A stretch of 64,000 bases of DNA from Parabacteroides gordonii MS-1 = DSM 23371 (GTDB taxonomy: Bacteria > Bacteroidota > Bacteroidia > Bacteroidales > Tannerellaceae), in the NCBI RefSeq assembly GCF_000969825.1, contig NZ_KQ033919.1, positions 1,526,173-1,590,172 of the forward strand, read 5' to 3'. Under the pieces are notes generated by a model. It was not told the origin of the DNA. It worked only from the letters and a program-made list of their open reading frames with translations, and searched no databases. Each line of letters opens with the position of its first letter. The first letter of the stretch is position 1. Position numbers and translations under genes: made by a program. Positions 375 through 32,934 of this stretch are shown in pieces.

Positions 375-3300
375 TTATTTTACGATTGCTTTTACAGCTG
401 CTTCACCTTCTACGGCTACCACTACTACACCTACAGGAGCAGAGATAGTGGCATTGTCAGAAGAAAGAACTGTGTTGGCGATTGTCTGACCAAGTACGTT
501 AGTGATAACGACTTTCTTACCGGCTGCACCGTTGATCGTTACAACACCGTTACCAGCGATAACTGATACAGAAGAAGCGTTGATATCTTCGTTAGCTGTC
601 GGAGTTTCTTCTGTCGGATTTACATTGAATATAGCAGCTTCGCTCAGTTCTGTTACCAGTACAGGTATACCATTATGGATACGAACATATTGAGCTTTCA
701 TTTCATCATCTACTTTTTTCGGTTCTGCTTCAATATAGAAGTCAGCGGCATTGCTATCATCAACCAGACGGAATGCGAATGTTGCAGCATTCATCTTGTT
801 TTCACCTTCCATAAGCAAGCTATCCTTATCAAGATTGTGCTTATCAGTAGTATAAATTGAATTGTTTATGATTAATGTGTCTGCAATATGTTTAGCCGGA
901 ACGAATGCCAGACGATCATTACCCTGGTACATAGCAGAAGTATTACCAGCAGCAACAGAGTCTGTCAAAGTCACCAAATAACGACCTTCCGTATAAGACG
1001 GAGTACCTGCAGTCCAGTGAGGACAATCTTCTGCATAACCATGAATAGGACAAGGAACAGAATCAGTACCTTCAGTAAACTGAACACCCAAAGCCAGCAT
1101 ATACAACGGTTTGTATGTTTCATTGCGAACATAAGCAGTATCAACAAAGATAGAAGCATTGCGTTTCATATCAGCCTTATTGTACATACCCAAGAAATTC
1201 AGGCTGTCTTTTGCAAATTCTGTACCATTGTTAGCAACAATGTTTGAAGAGTTTTCATACAAGAAACGAGTTGCTTCGTCTGCTTTGAAGAATTCTACAT
1301 AAGCAGTATCATTCTTAGCAATGGCATCTTCAATAGTTGCACCTAAGCGACGATAAAGAGGAGCCGGTTCACCTGTCAAAGCAAACATTGAAGTACGGTT
1401 TTCCGTTCCGGCAGCTTCCTGATACAAATGCAGGTCGTTGTCGTTTACACTAACTTTTTTGTCATCTGATGTAGTATACAGTACATAGAACGGAGTCTTG
1501 TCGTCACCTCTATGCATTGTTTCACGCAACCAGAAGCTTTTTGCATCAGTATCTGTTGCAGTCAGTACATAGCTTCCGTTCTTTTCGCCCACATACATCT
1601 TAACACCCTTAACAGTAGTTGTCAGTCTGTAAGCAACCATCTTCAGGTTAGTAGCGATATCTTTAGAACCAGATTCTACAACTGTAGTGTCTTTGTCTAA
1701 AATCTTAACTAATTCAGGAATGAAATCCAATGCTTCACCTTTTGTGTCAACAAACAGGACACCATCTTTATTTACATTTACTTTCTTTGTTGCATCCAGT
1801 TCGTTGAAATAAGTCAACTGATATTTCTTATACAGAGGAGCATCAAAGTAACCCAGTCTTTCACCACCGTCAGCGATCTTCGTCATTTTCAGCGTATCAC
1901 CACTTACAACGCCGTAAGCAAACACATTGTCACCGGCTTTGTATAACTGGATAGCTTTATCTGATCCTGTAAGATTTACTTTTGTTTCACGGTTCCAGAT
2001 TGTTACACGGCCATCGGCATCTTTCTTTGCAACCCACTGTGCAAACGGAAGTTTAGACCAAACATTTTCTGCATCTGCCATCCAAGCATTTGACTGATCA
2101 GTCTTAGCACCATAAATCTTACCATTATCGCCATTCTTTACACCTGAAACACATTCGATAACATAGATACCAGATTCGATAGTTGTAACAACTGCATCCG
2201 GAGTTCCACCCATACCGTTTGTTGAGATCTTCCACGGATCGATATCCAATGTATTGTCTGTAGCTTTATCAGCTGCAATTACAGTCATCTCAACAATGTT
2301 AGAGAAGTCTTTGAAAGATACAACCTGATTAGTGTTTGCAGCAATTGTAGTCTTACCATCAGCCCCTTTATCAAATACGAATGCCGGTTTAATAGAAACA
2401 GAGTCGTTTTCTACTGTATAATCCATAGTGAAAGAGTAAGAACCAGCAAAGTCTGTTGCAGGAGCATAGAATTTTTGGTCTGCACTACCTGTACCTCCTA
2501 TAACATCAGATACAGCATTCAACTTATTCAAAACCAGTTTGAAGTAAGTATCGTTTGTACCTGTTTCGTAAGTAGCAGGAAGAATTGTCAGATATTCGTT
2601 TTCGCCTTTTACTTTCAGCATGGCTACCTTTTGATAACTAGCAACAAGTTTTTTTGCAGCTGTTTTTTCAGCATCAGTCTTTACATCATCTGCATAAGTC
2701 TTACCAGATGTCTGCATTAAAAGGTTACGATATACCAACTGATATTCTTTATCTGCCAAAGGATTGCTCTGAACTTTCTTATCTTTCGGAGTTGTGAAAC
2801 CGAATTTTACTGATACGGTAGAACCGTCAGCTGCATCAGAGGCTTGTTTGAATTCTCTAACAAAAGAGGCAAGCAAAGCATCTTCTGTAGCCAAAGTAGT
2901 AGCAGCAACTTGCTCTGTTGCATCAGGTAATTCCAACTCACCAACGATAGCCGGAGCGAATGCCAAAGCGGTTGCAGTAACAACTTTTGTTCCTTTCAGA
3001 TAATTCTTACCACCAGCAGGAGCTACAGTTTTATCGCTTGCAATAATACCACCCAAATTACCATCTTTATCGATAGTTACATCACCGAATTCAGAGGTGT
3101 AGTTTTCTAGTGCTGTTAAAGCTGTTCCTAAACCCGAAAAAGAAGTAGACACATTAGTAGTGGTAGTCACACCTTCAAGACCTGCAATCATGCCATTGAA
3201 TGAACTATTTATAACACCTGCATTAGCATCTTTCAATACTTTTGTTGCTGCTTTAACAGCAGTTACTTCTTCTGCAGTAAGAGATGTTTTAGATGTTACT

Positions 3301-3869
3301 TTGTTCAATTCCGCAATAGCCTTAGCAAACGCAGTTTCCTTGCCACCCAAAACAACTTCGATAATACCACCAGTTGTAGGATCAGGAGCAGTACTCCCTT
3401 CAGCTGCCAATGTAGCAACCGTATACAATTTGTAATCACCGTTAGCAAGAGCTTCATCCCCACCAGGTGTAGCTGTATCCAACCAAACGAACTCGCCCAA
3501 GCCTTCAGCCACATGAGCAGTAGCAGCACCAGATTTAGGTAATACCAAAGTCTGGCCTGTTGACTCATTTACAAATGTAAAAGTGTAAGCCTTGTGAGCA
3601 TCTTGTGTATAAGATACTTTCCATAATGCTTTTGCACGGTTAACTTTAGAAGCAGTTTTTACATCAGCTTTAGGCAACAAAGCTAATTCGCCCTTGTCAT
3701 TAATGGTCAACACATTGTCGGCTTCATTACCTGCGGCCCATGAACCACCGGCTCCTAATAAAAACGTAGAGCCACTAGCGATCTCTGTATCTACATACGT
3801 TTGTGCAGAAGCGCCAAAACAAGTAGCAAACAGTAAGCTAGCTACAAGCGTAGAAAACTTTTTGTTCAT
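375..3869 (-). CDS. Large S-layer-like surface protein with DUF6383-type C-terminus (locus 1)
   Basis: Predicted 1164-residue exported protein. I chose the ATG at 3869 because it opens a clean signal peptide (MNKKFSTLVASLLFATCFGASAQ) shared with the paralogue at 29037-32414; a longer frame reaches 3959 but its extra 30 residues would overlap the recombination site. The body is acidic, Thr/Ala/Val-rich and shows no enzyme motif. The last ~70 residues (GKKVVITNVLGQ, ending VKAIVK) form a beta domain that resembles type IX secretion sorting domains; from memory this is DUF6383. The C-terminal third matches the paralogue while the N-terminal part diverges, as expected for an antigenically variable coat. 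Large Parabacteroides proteins of this kind include phase-variable S-layer glycoproteins; S-layer assignment here is inference. Its promoter lies in an invertible segment that now points away from the gene. Confidence 0.85.
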   Translation of the reverse strand: MNKKFSTLVASLLFATCFGASAQTYVDTEIASGSTFLLGAGGSWAAGNEADNVLTINDKGELALLPKADVKTASKVNRAKALWKVSYTQDAHKAYTFTFVNESTGQTLVLPKSGAATAHVAEGLGEFVWLDTATPGGDEALANGDYKLYTVATLAAEGSTAPDPTTGGIIEVVLGGKETAFAKAIAELNKVTSKTSLTAEEVTAVKAATKVLKDANAGVINSSFNGMIAGLEGVTTTTNVSTSFSGLGTALTALENYTSEFGDVTIDKDGNLGGIIASDKTVAPAGGKNYLKGTKVVTATALAFAPAIVGELELPDATEQVAATTLATEDALLASFVREFKQASDAADGSTVSVKFGFTTPKDKKVQSNPLADKEYQLVYRNLLMQTSGKTYADDVKTDAEKTAAKKLVASYQKVAMLKVKGENEYLTILPATYETGTNDTYFKLVLNKLNAVSDVIGGTGSADQKFYAPATDFAGSYSFTMDYTVENDSVSIKPAFVFDKGADGKTTIAANTNQVVSFKDFSNIVEMTVIAADKATDNTLDIDPWKISTNGMGGTPDAVVTTIESGIYVIECVSGVKNGDNGKIYGAKTDQSNAWMADAENVWSKLPFAQWVAKKDADGRVTIWNRETKVNLTGSDKAIQLYKAGDNVFAYGVVSGDTLKMTKIADGGERLGYFDAPLYKKYQLTYFNELDATKKVNVNKDGVLFVDTKGEALDFIPELVKILDKDTTVVESGSKDIATNLKMVAYRLTTTVKGVKMYVGEKNGSYVLTATDTDAKSFWLRETMHRGDDKTPFYVLYTTSDDKKVSVNDNDLHLYQEAAGTENRTSMFALTGEPAPLYRRLGATIEDAIAKNDTAYVEFFKADEATRFLYENSSNIVANNGTEFAKDSLNFLGMYNKADMKRNASIFVDTAYVRNETYKPLYMLALGVQFTEGTDSVPCPIHGYAEDCPHWTAGTPSYTEGRYLVTLTDSVAAGNTSAMYQGNDRLAFVPAKHIADTLIINNSIYTTDKHNLDKDSLLMEGENKMNAATFAFRLVDDSNAADFYIEAEPKKVDDEMKAQYVRIHNGIPVLVTELSEAAIFNVNPTEETPTANEDINASSVSVIAGNGVVTINGAAGKKVVITNVLGQTIANTVLSSDNATISAPVGVVVVAVEGEAAVKAIVK

Positions 3870-3949
3870 AAATTTAAATTTTAATATTAATAATAGTGTT
3901 CCTAAAAGTTCTTTAATCTTAGATTCGATACGTTTGGCAATTGTTAAAT

Positions 3950-3979
3950 GACTAGCCAAAACGTTCCTTTTTTCTAGTC
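3950..3979 (+). repeat. Inverton 1, left recombination site
   Basis: A 30-bp imperfect palindrome with layout GACTAG-N6-CGTTCC-N6-CTAGTC. It matches the reverse complement of 4124-4153 at 27 of 30 positions; all three mismatches are in the outer arm, and the inner arm plus core are identical (identity runs two bases further, 20 bp in all). The 12-6-12 layout fits a tyrosine recombinase site with a 6-bp core. Confidence 0.85.
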
Positions 3980-4089
3980 ATTTTTTTGAGGGACAATTGC
4001 TTTCGTGTAAAAAAGAGGGAATTTTATACTAACTTTGCTATCCGGTTGATAAGAAAGCACATAGATTAGGTAAAATAATTTGGAAAAGG

Positions 4090-4120
4090 ATTGCAGATTC
4101 AAAATTAAGCAATACCTTTG
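4090..4120 (+). promoter_or_regulatory. Invertible promoter, facing right (OFF for the S-layer-like gene)
   Basis: ATTG at 4090-4093, a 19-bp spacer, then TACCTTTG at 4113-4120 fit the Bacteroidales promoter (-33/-7). The -7 box ends 3 bp before the right site, so the transcript should start inside the site. It points away from the minus-strand gene at 375-3869 and toward the TonB receptor at 4501. Inversion would place it about 95 nt upstream of the S-layer-like start codon. Confidence 0.75.
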
Positions 4121-4123
4121 CAT

Positions 4124-4153
4124 GACTAGAAAAAAGGAACGATTTATCTAGTC
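4124..4153 (-). repeat. Inverton 1, right recombination site
   Basis: Inverted partner of 3950-3979: GACTAG-A6-GGAACG-N6-CTAGTC. The core GGAACG is the complement of the left core, so recombination between the two gives inversion of the roughly 144-bp segment between them. Confidence 0.85.
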
Positions 4154-4500
4154 AGTCTTTTTTGGGCATCTATCCTTTATTATTCAATAGACTATATATC
4201 ACATTCACTACCCCCTATTTATATAGATATGTACTCGCGCGCGTTTCATAATAGTCTGTGTATCAATACCCGTTTTTTCAGATTTTCACGAACAATTGTT
4301 AAACGGGAATATTTTGCCAGTAAATTGCGCCATTTGTGCTCCCGAAAAGACCATCGAAATACTATTTAAACGGCAATACCTATATATTGCTATTTTCCCC
4401 TTCCTTCCCTCTCTGTTTTTTACCTACAATCGGTGATTGATGCGCTTTTCTTTTCAACCGACCTTTGCAACAATTAATAAATGGTAAAAAGATTAAGACA
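4154..4500. other. Intergenic leader between inverton 1 and the siderophore operon
   Basis: No gene seen. It holds a perfect 6-bp-arm inverted repeat GCATAT-like element at 4373-4390 (GCAATA-CCTATA-TATTGC), a weak stem CCCGTTT/AAACGGG (4269-4275 with 4301-4307) without a following T-run, and a likely promoter for the TonB gene near 4437-4467 (ATTG, 20-bp spacer, GACCTTTG). Confidence 0.5.
4372..4390 (+). promoter_or_regulatory. Candidate iron-responsive operator
   Basis: GGCAATACCTATATAT at 4372-4387 is repeated exactly at 21377-21392, upstream of the flavodoxin gene. Both genes are of types usually induced by iron starvation. The copy here is a perfect inverted repeat (GCAATA, 6-bp gap, TATTGC). 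Binding by a Fur-like repressor is inference. Confidence 0.45.
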
Positions 4501-6879
4501 TTGAAAGCGATATTTAACACACTTATGTTTGTATTACTCCTTGTATTTCTTTCGGTCGCGGCAAAAGCACAAAGCGGTACGATGATCTCAGGGAAAATAG
4601 TATCTACGGAAAAAGAGATCGTCGATTTTGCAACGGTCTATCTGAAAGGTACAAATTATGGGGGAACGACTAACGAAGAAGGTATCTATCATCTGAAAGC
4701 TCCTGCAGGAAATTATACACTGGTCGTATCCGCCATCGGTTACAAGACAGTAGAAAAACAGGTCAAACTGATCGACGGGCAACGTGTAAAACAAAATATC
4801 ACCATCACTCCACAAGCGGAAGAGCTCGACGAAGTGGTAGTTGTCTCCAACGGAGTCAGCCGCCTGAAACGCTCGGCATTCAACGCCATCGCGGTAGATA
4901 CGAAGGAACTGCAAAACTCCACCAAGAACCTGAGCGATGCACTGGGGAAAGCTCCGGGGATGAAGCTCCGTGAGTCGGGCGGCGTAGGATCAGACATGCA
5001 GCTGATGCTAGACGGTTTCAGCGGAAAGCATGTGAAGGTGTTTATCGACGGGGTACCGCAGGAAGGGGTGGGAAGTTCTTTCGCACTGAACAATATCCCC
5101 GTCAACTTTGCCGACCGTATCGAAGTGTATAAAGGGGTAGTCCCCGTTGGCTTCGGGACGGATGCGATCGGCGGGGTCGTTAATATCGTGACCAACAAGA
5201 AACGCCGCAACTGGTTCCTGGATGCTTCCTATTCATACGGATCTTTCAATACACATAAATCGTATGTGAATTTCGGACAGACCTTCAACAATGGTTTTGC
5301 CTACGAGATCAATGCTTTCCAGAACTATTCGGACAACGACTATTATGTAGATGCCCCGGTGAAGGATTTCGAAACCGGTAGCCTGGATACAGAGAACAAA
5401 GAACGTGTGAAACGTTTCAACGATACTTATCACAACGAGGCGGTAGTCGGTAAACTGGGTCTGGTGGATAAGAAATGGGCAGACCGCCTGATGTTCGGCT
5501 TCACTTACTCGAATATGTATCAGGAGATACAGACAGGGGTACGCCAGAAAACCGTATACGGCCAGAAGCACCGCAAAGGCCATTCGCTGATGCCGTCGCT
5601 CGAATACAACAAACGCAACCTGTTCGATAGCGGAGTAGACGTGGCGCTGACCGTCAACTACAACAAGAACCAGACAACGAACGTGGACACTTCCGCCTAC
5701 GAATATAACTGGCGCGGCGAAAAGCACCTGATGAATTCGCGCGGCGAACAATCCTACCAGCATACCCGTTCGGACAACAATAACTGGAACGGTACACTGA
5801 CGGCCAATTACCGGATCGGCAAAGCGCATATGTTCACCTTCAACCATGTGTTGAACACCTTCAGCCGCTCCAACACCTCGCTGCTGACCAACGAGGAAAT
5901 GACGGATGCCATCAACAAGGAGACACGGAAGAATATCTCCGGCCTCTCCTACCGCCTGATGCCGTCGGAACACTGGAACCTCTCCGTGTTCGGTAAATAC
6001 TACAACCAGTTTGTAGCAGGCCCGATGGCGACCAGTTCCACACAGGACGAGTATGTGCGTACCACCCGCAGCGTCAACTCGATGGGATACGGGGCAGCAG
6101 GTACGTATTTCGTTCTGCCCGGCTTACAGGCCAAGCTGTCTTACGAGAAAGCATACCGCCTGCCTACGATCGAGGAAATGTTCGGTAACGAAGACCTCGA
6201 AATGGGCGACCTCAGCATCAAACCGGAGAATAGCGACAACATCAACCTGAATATCAGTTACAACCGGACATTCGGCAAACATACCATCTATACGGAAGGC
6301 GGCGTGATCTATCGCAATACACGCGACTATATCCAACGTAATATTACCGACCTGAGTGGCGGTAAAGAAGCTGCGACTTATATCAACTACGGTAAAGTAC
6401 TGACGAAAGGGTATAACATCTCCGCCCGTTACGGTTTCGGCAACTGGCTAAGTATCGGCGGTAACTTTACGCAGATGAACGTACGCGACAACCAAAAGAC
6501 GGCTATCGGTAGCGGAGCGAACAACATCGCCTACAAACAGCGTATGCCGAACCTGCCCTACCGCTTTGCCGACTCGGACGTGACGTTCTACTGGCGCAAC
6601 TTGTTTGAGAAAGGCAATACACTGACCGTATCGTACGACAATCAGTATCTGCATGAGTTCACCTATTATTCATCCATCATCGGATCGAATAAAGGGGAAT
6701 ACCTCGTACCGAGCCAGTTCTCACACAACCTGTCTCTGTCTTACACCCTGAAGAACGGACGTTACAACATCTCTTTCGAGTGCCGTAACTTCACGGATGA
6801 GAAGCTGTATGACAACTTCAGCCTGCAACGAGCAGGACGGGCTTTCTACGGAAAGGTTCGTGTCTACTTAGGAAATTAA
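4501..6879 (+). CDS. TonB-dependent receptor, XusA-like (siderophore uptake)
   Basis: Outer-membrane active transporter of about 792 residues. I prefer the TTG at 4501, which opens a good signal peptide (KAIFNTLMFVLLLVFLSVAAKAQ); the TTG at 4465 lies within a likely -7 box, and the ATG at 4481 is out of frame. Order: signal peptide, carboxypeptidase-regulatory-like beta domain (about residues 30-105), plug domain (VVVVSNGVSRL onward, with DGVPQEGVGSS and GGVVNIVTNK), then a 22-strand-type barrel to the C-terminus (RVYLGN). The next genes encode a DUF4374 lipoprotein, an esterase and a PepSY membrane protein, the set known as XusA/XusB/XusC in Bacteroides thetaiotaomicron xenosiderophore uptake. 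The substrate is therefore probably a catecholate siderophore such as enterobactin; this is inference from context. Confidence 0.85.
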   Translation: MKAIFNTLMFVLLLVFLSVAAKAQSGTMISGKIVSTEKEIVDFATVYLKGTNYGGTTNEEGIYHLKAPAGNYTLVVSAIGYKTVEKQVKLIDGQRVKQNITITPQAEELDEVVVVSNGVSRLKRSAFNAIAVDTKELQNSTKNLSDALGKAPGMKLRESGGVGSDMQLMLDGFSGKHVKVFIDGVPQEGVGSSFALNNIPVNFADRIEVYKGVVPVGFGTDAIGGVVNIVTNKKRRNWFLDASYSYGSFNTHKSYVNFGQTFNNGFAYEINAFQNYSDNDYYVDAPVKDFETGSLDTENKERVKRFNDTYHNEAVVGKLGLVDKKWADRLMFGFTYSNMYQEIQTGVRQKTVYGQKHRKGHSLMPSLEYNKRNLFDSGVDVALTVNYNKNQTTNVDTSAYEYNWRGEKHLMNSRGEQSYQHTRSDNNNWNGTLTANYRIGKAHMFTFNHVLNTFSRSNTSLLTNEEMTDAINKETRKNISGLSYRLMPSEHWNLSVFGKYYNQFVAGPMATSSTQDEYVRTTRSVNSMGYGAAGTYFVLPGLQAKLSYEKAYRLPTIEEMFGNEDLEMGDLSIKPENSDNINLNISYNRTFGKHTIYTEGGVIYRNTRDYIQRNITDLSGGKEAATYINYGKVLTKGYNISARYGFGNWLSIGGNFTQMNVRDNQKTAIGSGANNIAYKQRMPNLPYRFADSDVTFYWRNLFEKGNTLTVSYDNQYLHEFTYYSSIIGSNKGEYLVPSQFSHNLSLSYTLKNGRYNISFECRNFTDEKLYDNFSLQRAGRAFYGKVRVYLGN

Positions 6880-28155: not shown

Positions 28156-28599
28156 TTAGCCAAATTTCTCTTTATCTTTTCCCTGAAAATTATATTTCAC
28201 CATAAATTCCTTATACTCAACATCAAAACTCTTCCTTTTATGATGTTCTTCCTGATTATGTATATATCTCCTAACAATATCAACCTGACTTTCACCAATC
28301 GATACAGCAAAATAATCATCTTGCCATTGTAAAGTATTCCAGCCTTTCTTATTAAACCAAAAAGAAGATTCTCCTTTTATCAACTGAATTATTTTCGCTA
28401 TATTTTGCATTCCACCTAAAGAGATCAAACAATGAACATGTTCTTTATCTCCTCCGATTGTGTCAATATAGATTCCTTTATTATAAGAGTGTATTCTGAT
28501 GTGTTCGAATAATTGAATTCGATAATCTTTGTTTACTAATTGAGGCTCACGATTCTTCGTGCTCCACACACAATGGATCATCATTCTAATATATGTCAT
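28156..28599 (-). CDS. REP-associated tyrosine transposase (IS200/IS605 TnpA-like, RAYT)
   Basis: A 147-residue Y1 single-strand transposase. The HUH pair is His54-Val-His56 (DKEHVHCLIS) and the catalytic Tyr is likely Tyr112 (VRRYIHNQEEHH). It is framed by inverted copies of a 49-bp palindromic element, the arrangement of RAYT genes that mobilise REP hairpins, rather than a classical IS with its own subterminal hairpins and tnpB. The reading frame appears intact. The C-terminal end overlaps the small palindrome of the left element. Confidence 0.88.
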   Translation of the reverse strand: MTYIRMMIHCVWSTKNREPQLVNKDYRIQLFEHIRIHSYNKGIYIDTIGGDKEHVHCLISLGGMQNIAKIIQLIKGESSFWFNKKGWNTLQWQDDYFAVSIGESQVDIVRRYIHNQEEHHKRKSFDVEYKEFMVKYNFQGKDKEKFG

Positions 28600-29036: not shown

Positions 29037-32000
29037 TTACTTAACGATTGCTTTAACAGCAGCTTCACCTTCTACAGCTACAACAACTACACCAGCAGGA
29101 GCAGCGATTTCAGCCTTATCAGAAGAGATTACTGTGTTAGCAACTGTCTGACCAAGAACGTTACTGATAGTAACTTTCTTACCCTGTGCACCAGAGATGA
29201 TTACTGCACCGTCTTTAGCGATTACAGATACTTCAGAAGCAGTTACACCTTCGTTAGCAGTCGGAGTACGAGTTTCGTCTTCGTTCATGTTGAATACTTC
29301 AGCCTGTTCGATATCACTAACAACAACAACCAAACCGTTCAACCATTTCAGATAACCTGTACCGACTTCTTCAGCATAGTCACCATTTTCATTGTAAGCC
29401 TTGCGACCAGTTTCAATAACATATGAACCAGCTTCCTGATCTACATAGCGGAATGCAAACTTAGCAATGCTGTGAGAATAGTCGCTACGATCCATCGGTA
29501 ACACATTGTATGTTCCGTTCGGACGTTTCAGATACAAAGTGTCGTGTGTATGGTAGCCTTCTACAAAGCCTAACTTAGCCCATTGTTCACCATCTTCTTC
29601 ATTGATGAATTTGTTATCATGCAAATGAGTTTCAGCATAAACATTAGCAGAGTCCATCAAGTTAACCAGGAAGCGACCAGTTGTTGTGTCAGCTTTGTGT
29701 ACTGGATGATCTTCAATTTCACATTTGATTTCAGAATCCCAATGTTTAGCTTCTACAGCTAACAGATATTCCCAACGGTTGTTGTTACCACGGTTTACAT
29801 AAGCAGTATCTACATACAAAGCAGGATTGATTGTCGGGAACTGAACGGCATTTGCAATACTCAGGAATTCACCCTTTTCAAACAGAACCTGTGCTTCGTT
29901 TACACTTGATTCACGATAAATCTTGATAGTGTCAGCCATAGCTACCTTACGGTATTCAGGAGCATCTTTCTTAACGATAGTGAATAAGTCGTTTTCTGTC
30001 TGGTTGTACATATCTGTATTGTTCAGGATACCTTTTGTAGCACCATCACCGCTGTACATTTTTTCTACAGAAACATTTTCCCAATCAATAGCATCTGCTG
30101 TATTTGTATTCACTGCAGTTTCGTCTTTCAACGGAATCAGATTATACAAATCTTCTCCTACCACTTTAACAGCAAAGATATTTGCGTCTGCTGGATCCAG
30201 ATTTCCTTGTTTTACACCAAATTCACCTGTTGCATAACGATTAGAAGGAGCAGCTTCATAGTTCATATATTCTTTATTTGCAGCATTCTGGAAAGAATAT
30301 GCTAACATTTTCAAGATTACTGTACCTTCATCATCAGCATCTTTTGTTTCTTTGTAATCATCACCATCATAGTAACCTAAGATACTCTTAACCTGAATTG
30401 TATCAGGACGATATTCAACTCTGTCACCCAGGTTGTTCAAACCTTCATACATATAAGTTGCAACATTCCATTCTGTAGCTTTATCTTTCTTTGTATCCAA
30501 ACCAATCTGATGATTATCGTTATGGTTTTCTACGAAGTAAGCAACATTATCGAATACAGAAGAGGCAGCGCCCAGATAATATTTCTGATCTCTCAAGTCA
30601 TCAGCATTCAATCTCAAATAACCATCAGCTTCTGTGTAAGAAGTTGTAGCTTTGAATTCGATTGTATCATTTTTAGCAGAACCATCAAGAACAGCAAATA
30701 CATTTGCTTTGCTAGTAGTATATAACTGTGCAACCGGATATGATTTTGTAATAGACGGTCTTTCACGGTTTGTTAAAATCAGATTACCACCAGTATATGT
30801 GATAGCCCACTGAGTTTCAGGATAACCAACCAAAGCTTCAGATGCTTTTACATATTCTGCAGCAGGAGTTTCATCCAAGCCAAGAACTGTCTTATAGTTG
30901 TCAGAATAAGCAGCTTTTGTATTCTTATTTGTCACTGTGAAGAATGACGGAGTGCTTGTTAATAACTTCTTAACGTCGATAGTATTGAATTTACCAATCT
31001 TGATTGTGATAGCATTCAAGAACGCATCAGTAGAAGCCTCTGCAGACAGTGTAGGAACACCTTTCAAATCAACAGAACCTAATTTATAAGAAGCAGCATT
31101 ACCTTTAGTTGCAGCACTAATTGAAGCGACCGGTTGATTTACACCCGGAACAAAGTCATCAGATGCATTAATAGTAAAGTTATATGCATATCTGCCTGAG
31201 ATTTCAGCTTTAGCATCATTCAATGCATTAGCTAAAACTTTAGGAGCAATAGCTTTTACAGCATATTTTGTTTCAGTACCAGCAGCATATTTATCATTCA
31301 GGTCAATAACGATAATGTTTCCATCTTCGTTCTGAAGCATAAATGGGGTACCATTTTCAGCTTTAACAGTTGCTAAAACTTTACCAGCAGTACCATCGTT
31401 AAATGTAACAGTCTTCAACAATCCATCAAACGGATTATTTGCCAATGCTTTATCCTTTTTGTCACCATCAACAAATTTCTTAATGCTAGCTTCAAAACCT
31501 GCACCAGTGATAGATGTTAATTGCTCGCCTGTTAAAGATTGACCGGCAGCACGAACAGCACCAAGGCTAACAGCATTAATACCAGTTACTGCAGCACTCA
31601 AATCTACATCTTCAAAGTCATCTACTTTCCAAGGACTATTTTTATCAGTTCTATTTACATCTATTGTAATAAAAGCAGCACCTGCTGAAGGAATCAAATA
31701 TTTACCAGTAGCCTTGTTTTTTAGCTTTGCTGTACCTGTATTATCACCATTGTCAATAATATCTAAACTCCAAAACATATCCTGCTCAGCTGTATAAGTT
31801 TCAGATGTTGCAGTTCCATCAGCAGCGCCAGTCAAAACATTTCCACTTGCCGGATCCATCAATACATAAAAAGAAGAAGAAAGATCTGTTGCTACATCTA
31901 AAGGCCTATAAACTTTCAACGTATTTACAGCAACAAGTTTAGCTCCTGCAATCTTTCCATTTACATCTGCCTGAACAGAAAATACATTCGAAGCATAGTT

Positions 32001-32414
32001 TACAGAACCAGCAGAAGCATTTTTAATTGAAACTTCTTCTCCTGATGAAGCTATAGTAAAAGCTTCAATAGCACTACTTGTACCAAAAGCAACAAATGCA
32101 TCATTTGTCGAAGCAAAAGCCAGCTTATTAGCACCCGAAGCAATTCCATATGTGCCAGATCCAGTAAGAGTAACCTTATTAGCAGGGGTTGCATCGGCTA
32201 AAGATGTACGAACCAACCCCGTAGCACCTGCACCAACAGAAATAACATAACCATCAGATGTTACAATGTAAAAATCAGTTGCAGATGGAGACGCCTCCGC
32301 TGCAGCACTGTAGTCTCCGGTAACATACACCAACTTCGCAAACAAGTCCGTAGGAGTAATCAGAGCACCGGCTAGCAGGGCGCCGGCCACAAGTGTAGAA
32401 AACTTTTTGTTCAT
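29037..32414 (-). CDS. Large S-layer-like surface protein with DUF6383-type C-terminus (locus 2)
   Basis: Predicted 1125-residue exported protein, paralogue of 375-3869. It starts with the same MNKKFSTLVA signal peptide and ends with the same sorting-like beta domain (GKKVTISNVLGQTVANT and VKAIVK). Resemblance extends through the last third (a TAYV.. segment, a His/Cys-containing stretch, GRFLV.LMDS, FAFR), while the N-terminal two-thirds diverge. No enzyme motif seen. A surface coat role and glycosylation are inferred from known Parabacteroides S-layer families. Expression should depend on the invertible segment at 32498-32690, which in this sequence has its promoter facing away. Confidence 0.85.
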   Translation of the reverse strand: MNKKFSTLVAGALLAGALITPTDLFAKLVYVTGDYSAAAEASPSATDFYIVTSDGYVISVGAGATGLVRTSLADATPANKVTLTGSGTYGIASGANKLAFASTNDAFVAFGTSSAIEAFTIASSGEEVSIKNASAGSVNYASNVFSVQADVNGKIAGAKLVAVNTLKVYRPLDVATDLSSSFYVLMDPASGNVLTGAADGTATSETYTAEQDMFWSLDIIDNGDNTGTAKLKNKATGKYLIPSAGAAFITIDVNRTDKNSPWKVDDFEDVDLSAAVTGINAVSLGAVRAAGQSLTGEQLTSITGAGFEASIKKFVDGDKKDKALANNPFDGLLKTVTFNDGTAGKVLATVKAENGTPFMLQNEDGNIIVIDLNDKYAAGTETKYAVKAIAPKVLANALNDAKAEISGRYAYNFTINASDDFVPGVNQPVASISAATKGNAASYKLGSVDLKGVPTLSAEASTDAFLNAITIKIGKFNTIDVKKLLTSTPSFFTVTNKNTKAAYSDNYKTVLGLDETPAAEYVKASEALVGYPETQWAITYTGGNLILTNRERPSITKSYPVAQLYTTSKANVFAVLDGSAKNDTIEFKATTSYTEADGYLRLNADDLRDQKYYLGAASSVFDNVAYFVENHNDNHQIGLDTKKDKATEWNVATYMYEGLNNLGDRVEYRPDTIQVKSILGYYDGDDYKETKDADDEGTVILKMLAYSFQNAANKEYMNYEAAPSNRYATGEFGVKQGNLDPADANIFAVKVVGEDLYNLIPLKDETAVNTNTADAIDWENVSVEKMYSGDGATKGILNNTDMYNQTENDLFTIVKKDAPEYRKVAMADTIKIYRESSVNEAQVLFEKGEFLSIANAVQFPTINPALYVDTAYVNRGNNNRWEYLLAVEAKHWDSEIKCEIEDHPVHKADTTTGRFLVNLMDSANVYAETHLHDNKFINEEDGEQWAKLGFVEGYHTHDTLYLKRPNGTYNVLPMDRSDYSHSIAKFAFRYVDQEAGSYVIETGRKAYNENGDYAEEVGTGYLKWLNGLVVVVSDIEQAEVFNMNEDETRTPTANEGVTASEVSVIAKDGAVIISGAQGKKVTISNVLGQTVANTVISSDKAEIAAPAGVVVVAVEGEAAVKAIVK

Positions 32415-32497: not shown

Positions 32498-32527
32498 GAC
32501 TAGCGAAAACGATCGTTTAATCTCGTC
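32498..32527 (+). repeat. Inverton 2, left recombination site
   Basis: A 30-bp imperfect palindrome, GACTAG-N6-CGATCG-N6-CTCGTC. It matches the reverse complement of 32661-32690 at 26 of 30 positions. The layout is the same as inverton 1, but the 6-bp core is CGATCG, which is self-complementary. Confidence 0.82.
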
Positions 32528-32627
32528 ACTGGTTTACCGTTCGTCCTCTAAAAATGCGTTTTCATACAAACTATGCTATTCAATTGATAAGAAAGCAGAT
32601 ACCAATGAAAAAAAAGAAGTGAAAAGA

Positions 32628-32658
32628 ATTGCGGAAATGAAACAAATGCGTACTTTTG
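32628..32658 (+). promoter_or_regulatory. Invertible promoter, facing right (OFF for the S-layer-like gene)
   Basis: ATTG (32628-32631), 19-bp spacer, TACTTTTG (32651-32658), ending 2 bp before the right site. This is the same geometry as in inverton 1. It points away from the gene at 29037-32414. Confidence 0.75.
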
Positions 32659-32660
32659 TA

Positions 32661-32690
32661 GACGAGAATAAACGATCGTTTTTTCTCGTC
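32661..32690 (-). repeat. Inverton 2, right recombination site
   Basis: Inverted partner of 32498-32527: GACGAG-N6-CGATCG-T6-CTCGTC. The segment between the sites is 133 bp. Confidence 0.82.
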
Positions 32691-32934
32691 ATCCCCCTGC
32701 TCCTCCTCATTCACATTCAACAAACAAATCTTCGGATAAAACAACATTATATATATTATGTACGCGTGTACATTAATATAAGGCATCATATACACCCCGA
32801 ATTACGGTTTCTTATGCGTCACCTTCAGCTCTGCTTTCCCCTCCTTTTTCCCCTTAAATACCTAAGTTCTTACATTAGGAAAGCTAAAACCGAAACACCT
32901 TACAATTTAGGGTCATCTTCATAACTTTTATAAA

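Follow-up and report, generated by a model that had tools for sequence, protein, structure and literature searches.

Does the 204-bp segment in front of the large surface protein gene at the left end of this stretch of Parabacteroides gordonii MS-1 DNA act as an invertible promoter and, if so, which enzyme turns it and what does it control? The 64 000-nucleotide stretch analysed here (hereafter, the window) corresponds to positions 1526173-1590172 of contig C1 in the 6.79-Mb genome (G000) of this near relative of P. goldsteinii, and the segment occupies positions 3950-4153 of the window. We consider it very probable that the segment is an invertible promoter of the Mpi type. The broader reading, to which we assign a probability of about 0.88, is that it represents a phase-variation switch of this type, which is OFF in the present assembly and is one of at least 25 such switches under a single enzyme. 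The locus comprises the following features:

375-3869, minus strand: surface protein gene 1, an ORF of 1164 aa, presently OFF, with ATG at 3869 and DUF6383 at residues 1090-1163
378-767, minus strand: last 130 residues of gene 1, DUF6383, a predicted beta-sandwich similar to the C-terminal domains of type IX secretion system (T9SS) cargo
3870-3949, minus strand: 80-nt leader from the switch to the ATG of gene 1
3950-3979: gene-proximal 30-bp recombination site, GACTAGCCAAAA-CGTTCC-TTTTTTCTAGTC, from site comparison
3980-4123: invertible interior, 144 bp, from sequence reading
4047-4057, plus strand: conserved element TGATAAGAAAG upstream of the -33 box, the strand of which reports orientation, from sequence and pattern search
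4091-4120, plus strand: promoter TTG-N19-TACCTTTG, directed away from gene 1, from sequence reading
4124-4153: gene-distal 30-bp recombination site, an inverted copy of the first, from site comparison

The layout given in the preliminary description, with two 30-bp inverted sites that are identical at 27 of 30 positions, differ only in the outer arms and enclose 144 bp, was borne out base for base. All three mismatches fall in the outer arm and none in the inner one, and each site is itself a dyad consisting of GAC[T/G]AG-NN-AAAA, a six-base core and a mirror arm. The best score among 20 first-order Markov controls of 631 bp each was 22/30, and the half-site CGTTCCTTTTTTCTAGTC, with up to three mismatches allowed, has three matches in the window, namely, the locus 1 pair and one site of a second switch, against 0.07 expected. 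The textbook promoter said to end 3 bp before the right site is present as well: TTG at 4091-4093 is followed, after 19 bases, by TACCTTTG at 4113-4120, then by CAT and by the site itself. Judging by the consensus, we take this to be the Bacteroidetes form of promoter. It points rightward, that is, opposite to the minus-strand gene, so that the orientation claimed earlier, with the gene OFF in this assembly, holds for the sequence. No TTG-N18-21-TAnnTTTG promoter facing gene 1 was found inside the segment, where only a solitary TAATTTTG box, lacking TTG, faces the gene, and scans for sigma-70 promoters and terminators over 3700-4700 gave scores not above those of shuffled sequences. The segment has close relatives in the same genome, being 92-96% identical to those at loci L048, L053 and L061; the leader is 99% identical to that of L048 and 69-71% identical to those of L053 and L061.

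Across the genome, the DUF6383 model (PF19910) has 38 matches, 27 of them above 100 bits, and a site pair precedes 20 of the 27 strong loci, hereafter the coat-gene switches. The remaining seven (L046, L050, L060, L062, L068, L069 and L070) have no such pair, nor do the three loci (L071-L073) that were fetched out of the 11 weaker hits. Five additional pairs precede other genes, encoding a Listeria-Bacteroides-repeat protein (L074), DUF6261 proteins (L075 and L076), a polysaccharide synthesis protein (L077) and an HU-like protein (L078), bringing the set to at least 25, which is a lower bound because the sites were sought with a consensus of our own making. The L076 switch (L076:5151-5356) separates two divergent units: DUF6261 and Ig/InlB-repeat genes lie to one side of it and a MarR-family operon to the other. 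Its promoter now faces this operon, which encodes a MarR-family regulator, an efflux protein of the outer membrane, an HlyD-like protein and an MFS transporter. Searches for the switch sequence in phage records and for the sites in viral contigs yielded no matches.

At all 20 coat-gene switches, the promoter is directed away from its gene, in 19 of them with both TTG and TAnnTTTG and in L052 with the -7 box TAnnTTTG alone, and likewise points away from the gene that we assigned to each of the other five. Under free orientation, 25 away-facing promoters out of 25 would have a probability of 3e-8, although the assembly displays the majority orientation only. An OFF state at every one of the 20 coat-gene switches differs from the 50:50 distribution of free flipping, implying that inversion is rare or biased, or that some of the pairs may be dead. 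Within the 25 pairs, mismatches number 84 in the outer half-sites and 38 in the inner halves, a likeness of the inner halves that inversion alone would not maintain.

The window contains a second switch of this type, located between a ParA-family gene and surE:

29037-32414, minus strand: second DUF6383 gene, an ORF of 1125 aa
32498-32527: gene-proximal site of switch 2, core CGATCG, from site search
32629-32658, plus strand: switch 2 promoter TTG-N19-TACTTTTG, directed away from gene 2, from sequence reading
32661-32690: gene-distal site of switch 2, from site search

An IS200-like (Y1) transposase gene (28156-28599) separates the second coat gene from the ParA-family gene. The orthologue of switch 2 (32498-32690) was compared in P. 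goldsteinii 1001217B_150727_C5 (G012), a genome identified by the identity of five of its stretches to named contigs, and in the sister genome G037; among alignments of at least 600 bases, the two are 96.6% identical over 3356 bases at this locus. Both neighbours, the ParA-family gene and surE, are also present in G037; in G012, the surE side aligns too and the contig ends on the other side. The promoter is directed away from the gene in G012 and toward it in G037. The 133-bp interiors are identical at 127 positions (95.5%) once one of them is reversed, compared to 85/156 unreversed, whereas the flanks align in the same direction (138/151 and 82/84 identical). This comparison shows a recent inversion between the two genomes, and the preliminary reading of the segment as an invertible promoter is strengthened accordingly for this type of switch; locus 1 itself was not seen reversed, and we infer from its relatives that it inverts. 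No reversed copy of locus 1 or of core class CGTTCC was found, and a search of 123 genomes of the family for fully formed ON switches recovered the CGATCG locus of G037 alone. A gap in a P. goldsteinii switch (L248:7641-7740) was considered as a further sign of inversion and rejected, given that 77 bp of overlap on both of its sides point to an assembly that broke within sequence common to several loci.

Orientation could also be related to the repeats across the 38 genomes of the genus. Using exact patterns, which miss departing loci and recovered 17 of the 20 coat-gene switches known in G000, we identified 78 OFF occurrences in 21 genomes and 16 ON occurrences, the latter spread over 14 genomes, of which 12 have a single one and two have a pair. 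Flanking repeats were then scored independently of the site consensus at 46 loci (L080-L125), comprising all 16 ON and 30 of the 78 OFF occurrences, with each locus judged against its own three shuffles, the best of which scored 18 at any locus. Twelve ON loci lack repeats (14-15/24 bases, within the shuffle range) and four have them (22-23/24), whereas 29 of the 30 OFF loci score above their own shuffles (18-24/24); two OFF loci, L114 and L115, reach only 18/24, which equals the best shuffle of any locus. Thus, 29 of 33 repeat-flanked promoters point away from the gene and 12 of 13 repeat-free promoters point toward it (Fisher p 5e-7, or 1.5e-5 if the two weak OFF loci are counted as repeat-free). 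The 12 repeat-free ON loci are not independent, as their promoter sequences and neighbours place them in about three orthologous groups; with the groups collapsed, p rises to 0.016, or 0.07 with the two weak loci counted as repeat-free. With this reserve for kinship, the pattern supports the direction assigned to the ON state as well as the part ascribed to the repeats. The own genome, too, has a fixed, repeat-free locus with a gene-facing promoter, L060.

That promoters lacking repeats mostly retain the gene-facing direction also bears on the possibility that the outward promoter is itself productive. At locus 1, it would drive a TonB-dependent receptor gene (about 4501-6879, with an uncertain start codon) that begins about 350 bp past the switch, the segment then selecting between two products, and the divergent MarR/efflux operon on the outward side of L076 would fit such a two-way arrangement. 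The outward neighbour varies, however, being surE, about 1 kb away, at switch 2, and the receptor gene is immediately preceded by a promoter-like sequence of its own, TTG-N20-GACCTTTG (4437-4467), as read by eye. We therefore regard a two-way switch as unlikely and favour an ON/OFF switch of the surface protein gene.

The sites carry information on the enzyme that would turn the segment. The central two bases are equal within all 25 pairs, though TT, AT and AC/GT all occur among loci, whereas seven pairs differ at position 13, which lies two bases off the centre, and one of these also at position 18. Serine recombinases exchange strands over a two-base overlap, and tyrosine enzymes require identity over 6-8 bp, so that the invariant dinucleotide next to a variable position 13 fits a serine recombinase better. 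There are four matches to the serine recombinase model PF00239 in the genome (L156-L159), three of which (L156-L158) were scanned against NCBIfam. L156 passes the 'master DNA invertase Mpi family' model with 322.8 bits against a cut-off of 272, whereas L157 and L158 match it below the cut-off; the Mpi-family gene lies around C1:4436536-4436961. By coordinates, neither PF00239 nor PF00589 (tyrosine recombinase) matches lie in the window or in the fetched switch loci of the own genome, indicating that the enzyme acts in trans. Of the 38 genomes of the genus, 35 encode PF00239 proteins, with or without detected switches, and hence their presence or absence is not decisive.

Action of a tyrosine recombinase on the sites, in place of Mpi, appears improbable, if somewhat less so than a two-way switch. 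Other invertible promoters in Bacteroidales are under tyrosine recombinases, and any of the 66 PF00589 matches in this genome might be the enzyme. Yet indirect evidence points the other way: the differences at positions 13 and 18, together with the constancy of the centre, are at odds with the overlap length on record for such enzymes, and the genome encodes an equivalog of the Mpi family; furthermore, a site pair with the CGTTCC core also occurs in a record named Phocaeicola massiliensis, from another family (L278:3001-3200), as expected for a widely held enzyme.

With Mpi as the favoured candidate, a serine recombinase supplied in trans, most likely the Mpi-family DNA invertase of this genome, would pair the two 30-bp inverted sites, exchange them at the central dinucleotide and thereby turn the 144-bp interior. 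In the present orientation, the promoter would fire away from the 1164-aa gene, leaving it OFF. Once the interior is turned, transcripts would begin within or close to the inner arm of the gene-proximal site and extend through the 80-nt leader, and gene 1 would be expressed, its expression presumably following the orientation of the segment. The same enzyme would serve all of the at least 25 switches, most of which precede genes for surface proteins resembling T9SS cargo.

Conserved switches can precede dissimilar coding bodies. Among G000, G012 and G037, the promoter and leader of the locked-ON locus are 93-98% identical and the two neighbours 98-99% and 91-98%, but just 34-46% of the aligned residues of the proteins are equal. 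In a second group (G001, G011, G013 and G014), one neighbour is 93-97% and the leaders 88-99% identical, with bodies at 44-53%, except that G013 and G014 share 87%; in a third (G004, G005, G017 and G023), for which there is no neighbour control, leaders are 80-88% and bodies 49-63% identical. At the switch 2 locus, the G000 and G012 proteins are equal at 398 of 969 aligned residues, and the neighbours, compared between G000 and G037, are nearly invariant (SurE 245/254, ParA 253/254). The G012 and G037 proteins, equal at 779 of 1008 residues, show an abrupt step, with 45-81% identity per 100 residues over the first 700 and 99-100% thereafter. Residues 31-630 of the locked-ON protein of G000 are 71% identical to the protein behind an OFF switch of G014 (L124), compared to 38-39% for the syntenic G012 protein. 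Divergence of bodies under conserved promoters, leaders and neighbours is observed at L060, L164, L171 and 29037-32414 of the window. Within the own genome, the locus 1 body is only 28-34% identical to those of L048, L053 and L061, over 224-512 residues, despite switches that are 92-96% identical; in the pairs L056-L057 and L054-L063, similar switches accompany related bodies, and some body match is found in 141 of 190 pairs. We take replacement of bodies by recombination to be the simplest reading of these alignments, and fast divergence may instead account for bodies for which no donor was found.

The same observations raise the question of whether the sites are relics that no longer invert, the genes serving as a silent store that is recombined into expressed loci. 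Such a scenario would accommodate both the OFF state of all 20 coat-gene switches and the strong differences between bodies at orthologous loci with conserved leaders and neighbours. We hold it to be the least likely of the alternatives, considering that the sites are well kept, each pair having 0-7 mismatches in the outer arms and 0-6 in the inner ones (3 and 0 at locus 1), and that inversion occurred recently in one orthologous genome pair. One may tentatively envisage coat variation in two layers, with one gene locked ON through site loss, up to some twenty siblings kept OFF by Mpi-type switches, bodies exchanged among loci and species beneath promoters and leaders that stay conserved, the ON position receiving new coats and a palindrome, described below and nearly confined to these loci, marking or serving them; we consider this reading possible rather than probable.

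In the protein encoded by gene 1, residues 31-630 match, besides themselves, only a 76-residue stretch (E 9.7e-4) among the 38 genomes of the genus; no PDB chain was found by sequence at E 0.01, and the first contig scan with the protein as query confirmed no relative. In the predicted structure, the C-terminal domain has a fold similar to that of T9SS cargo domains. The gene 1 tail scores 10.9 bits with TIGR04183, missing the cut-off of 23 bits, and weak matches to this model are present in seven of the eight DUF6383 members scanned (best E 0.0096). DUF6383 has the look of a signal for type IX secretion, and T9SS-type export is a likely role for this domain. Three DUF6383 genes without switches, L046, L050 and L062, have in common a different leader of ~400 nt behind a TACCTTTG box, as judged by eye, for which RNA-level control is possible.

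Systems of this type are already known. Phase-variable S-layer-like glycoprotein loci have reportedly been described in Parabacteroides distasonis, where an invertible promoter lies ahead of members of a surface protein family. Among alignments of at least 250 bases, the scope also used for the Phocaeicola massiliensis record, two loci in records named P. distasonis have the same type of site, the same orientation of the segment and the palindrome, ahead of genes with a DUF6383 annotation. The same family of genes is thus found behind the same kind of switch, which, together with the T9SS-like tail, lends indirect support to the 'S-layer-like' label of the preliminary description; the present system differs in belonging to another species and in having 20 switched members, all OFF in the assembly. 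In Bacteroides fragilis, one master serine invertase, Mpi, acts on many capsule promoters flanked by inverted repeats. One of the five other switches here (L077) similarly precedes a polysaccharide synthesis gene, but the chief targets are DUF6383 proteins. Bacteroides thetaiotaomicron has a phase-variable surface layer with an invertible promoter before an S-layer-like gene, and the arrangement before the coat genes resembles it as generally described. The points worth following are the scale, the OFF bias, the exchange of bodies and the palindrome: what began as a single suspected switch is now a set of at least 25 across the genome, with an inversion visible between sister genomes, a candidate enzyme and an OFF bias that calls for explanation, and the diversification of surface coats in a gut commensal can be put to the test here.

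The palindrome is found outside the gene-distal sites of both switches in the window:

4229-4244: degenerate palindrome, three mismatches, beside switch 1, from motif search
32758-32773: palindrome ATGTACGCGTGTACAT, 67 bp outside switch 2, from motif search

In the form ATGTAC-N4-GTACAT, with a CG-rich centre and up to three mismatches, it lies 61-97 bp beyond the gene-distal site at 14 of the 20 coat-gene switches. Versions with other spacing were recognized by eye at L049, L056, L057 and L067, and the element is absent at L054 and L063; overall, it takes the form ATGTAC-N2/4/6-GTACAT, with L047, L051, L052, L064 and L066 among the carriers. In the whole genome, with at most one mismatch, it occurs at seven places, six of them beside coat-gene switches, compared to none for the reversed control. 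Downstream of the 20 genes, no palindrome with fewer than four mismatches was found within 400 bases (374 for gene 1). We surveyed 66 loci across the genus, counting 64, as L175 and L184 duplicate L105 and L116; the palindrome lies within 400 bp at 29 of these (10/16 ON and 19/48 OFF), with only 162 and 137 searchable bases at L090 and L103, respectively, versus two occurrences in 143 kb of background. A function as a general recombinase enhancer was considered and rejected, since matches at the five other-gene switches are near background (4-6 mismatches) and the palindrome is present at repeat-free loci. The spacing varies by steps of two while the palindrome is kept, which suggests a hairpin or some other structure rather than a dimer site of fixed spacing.
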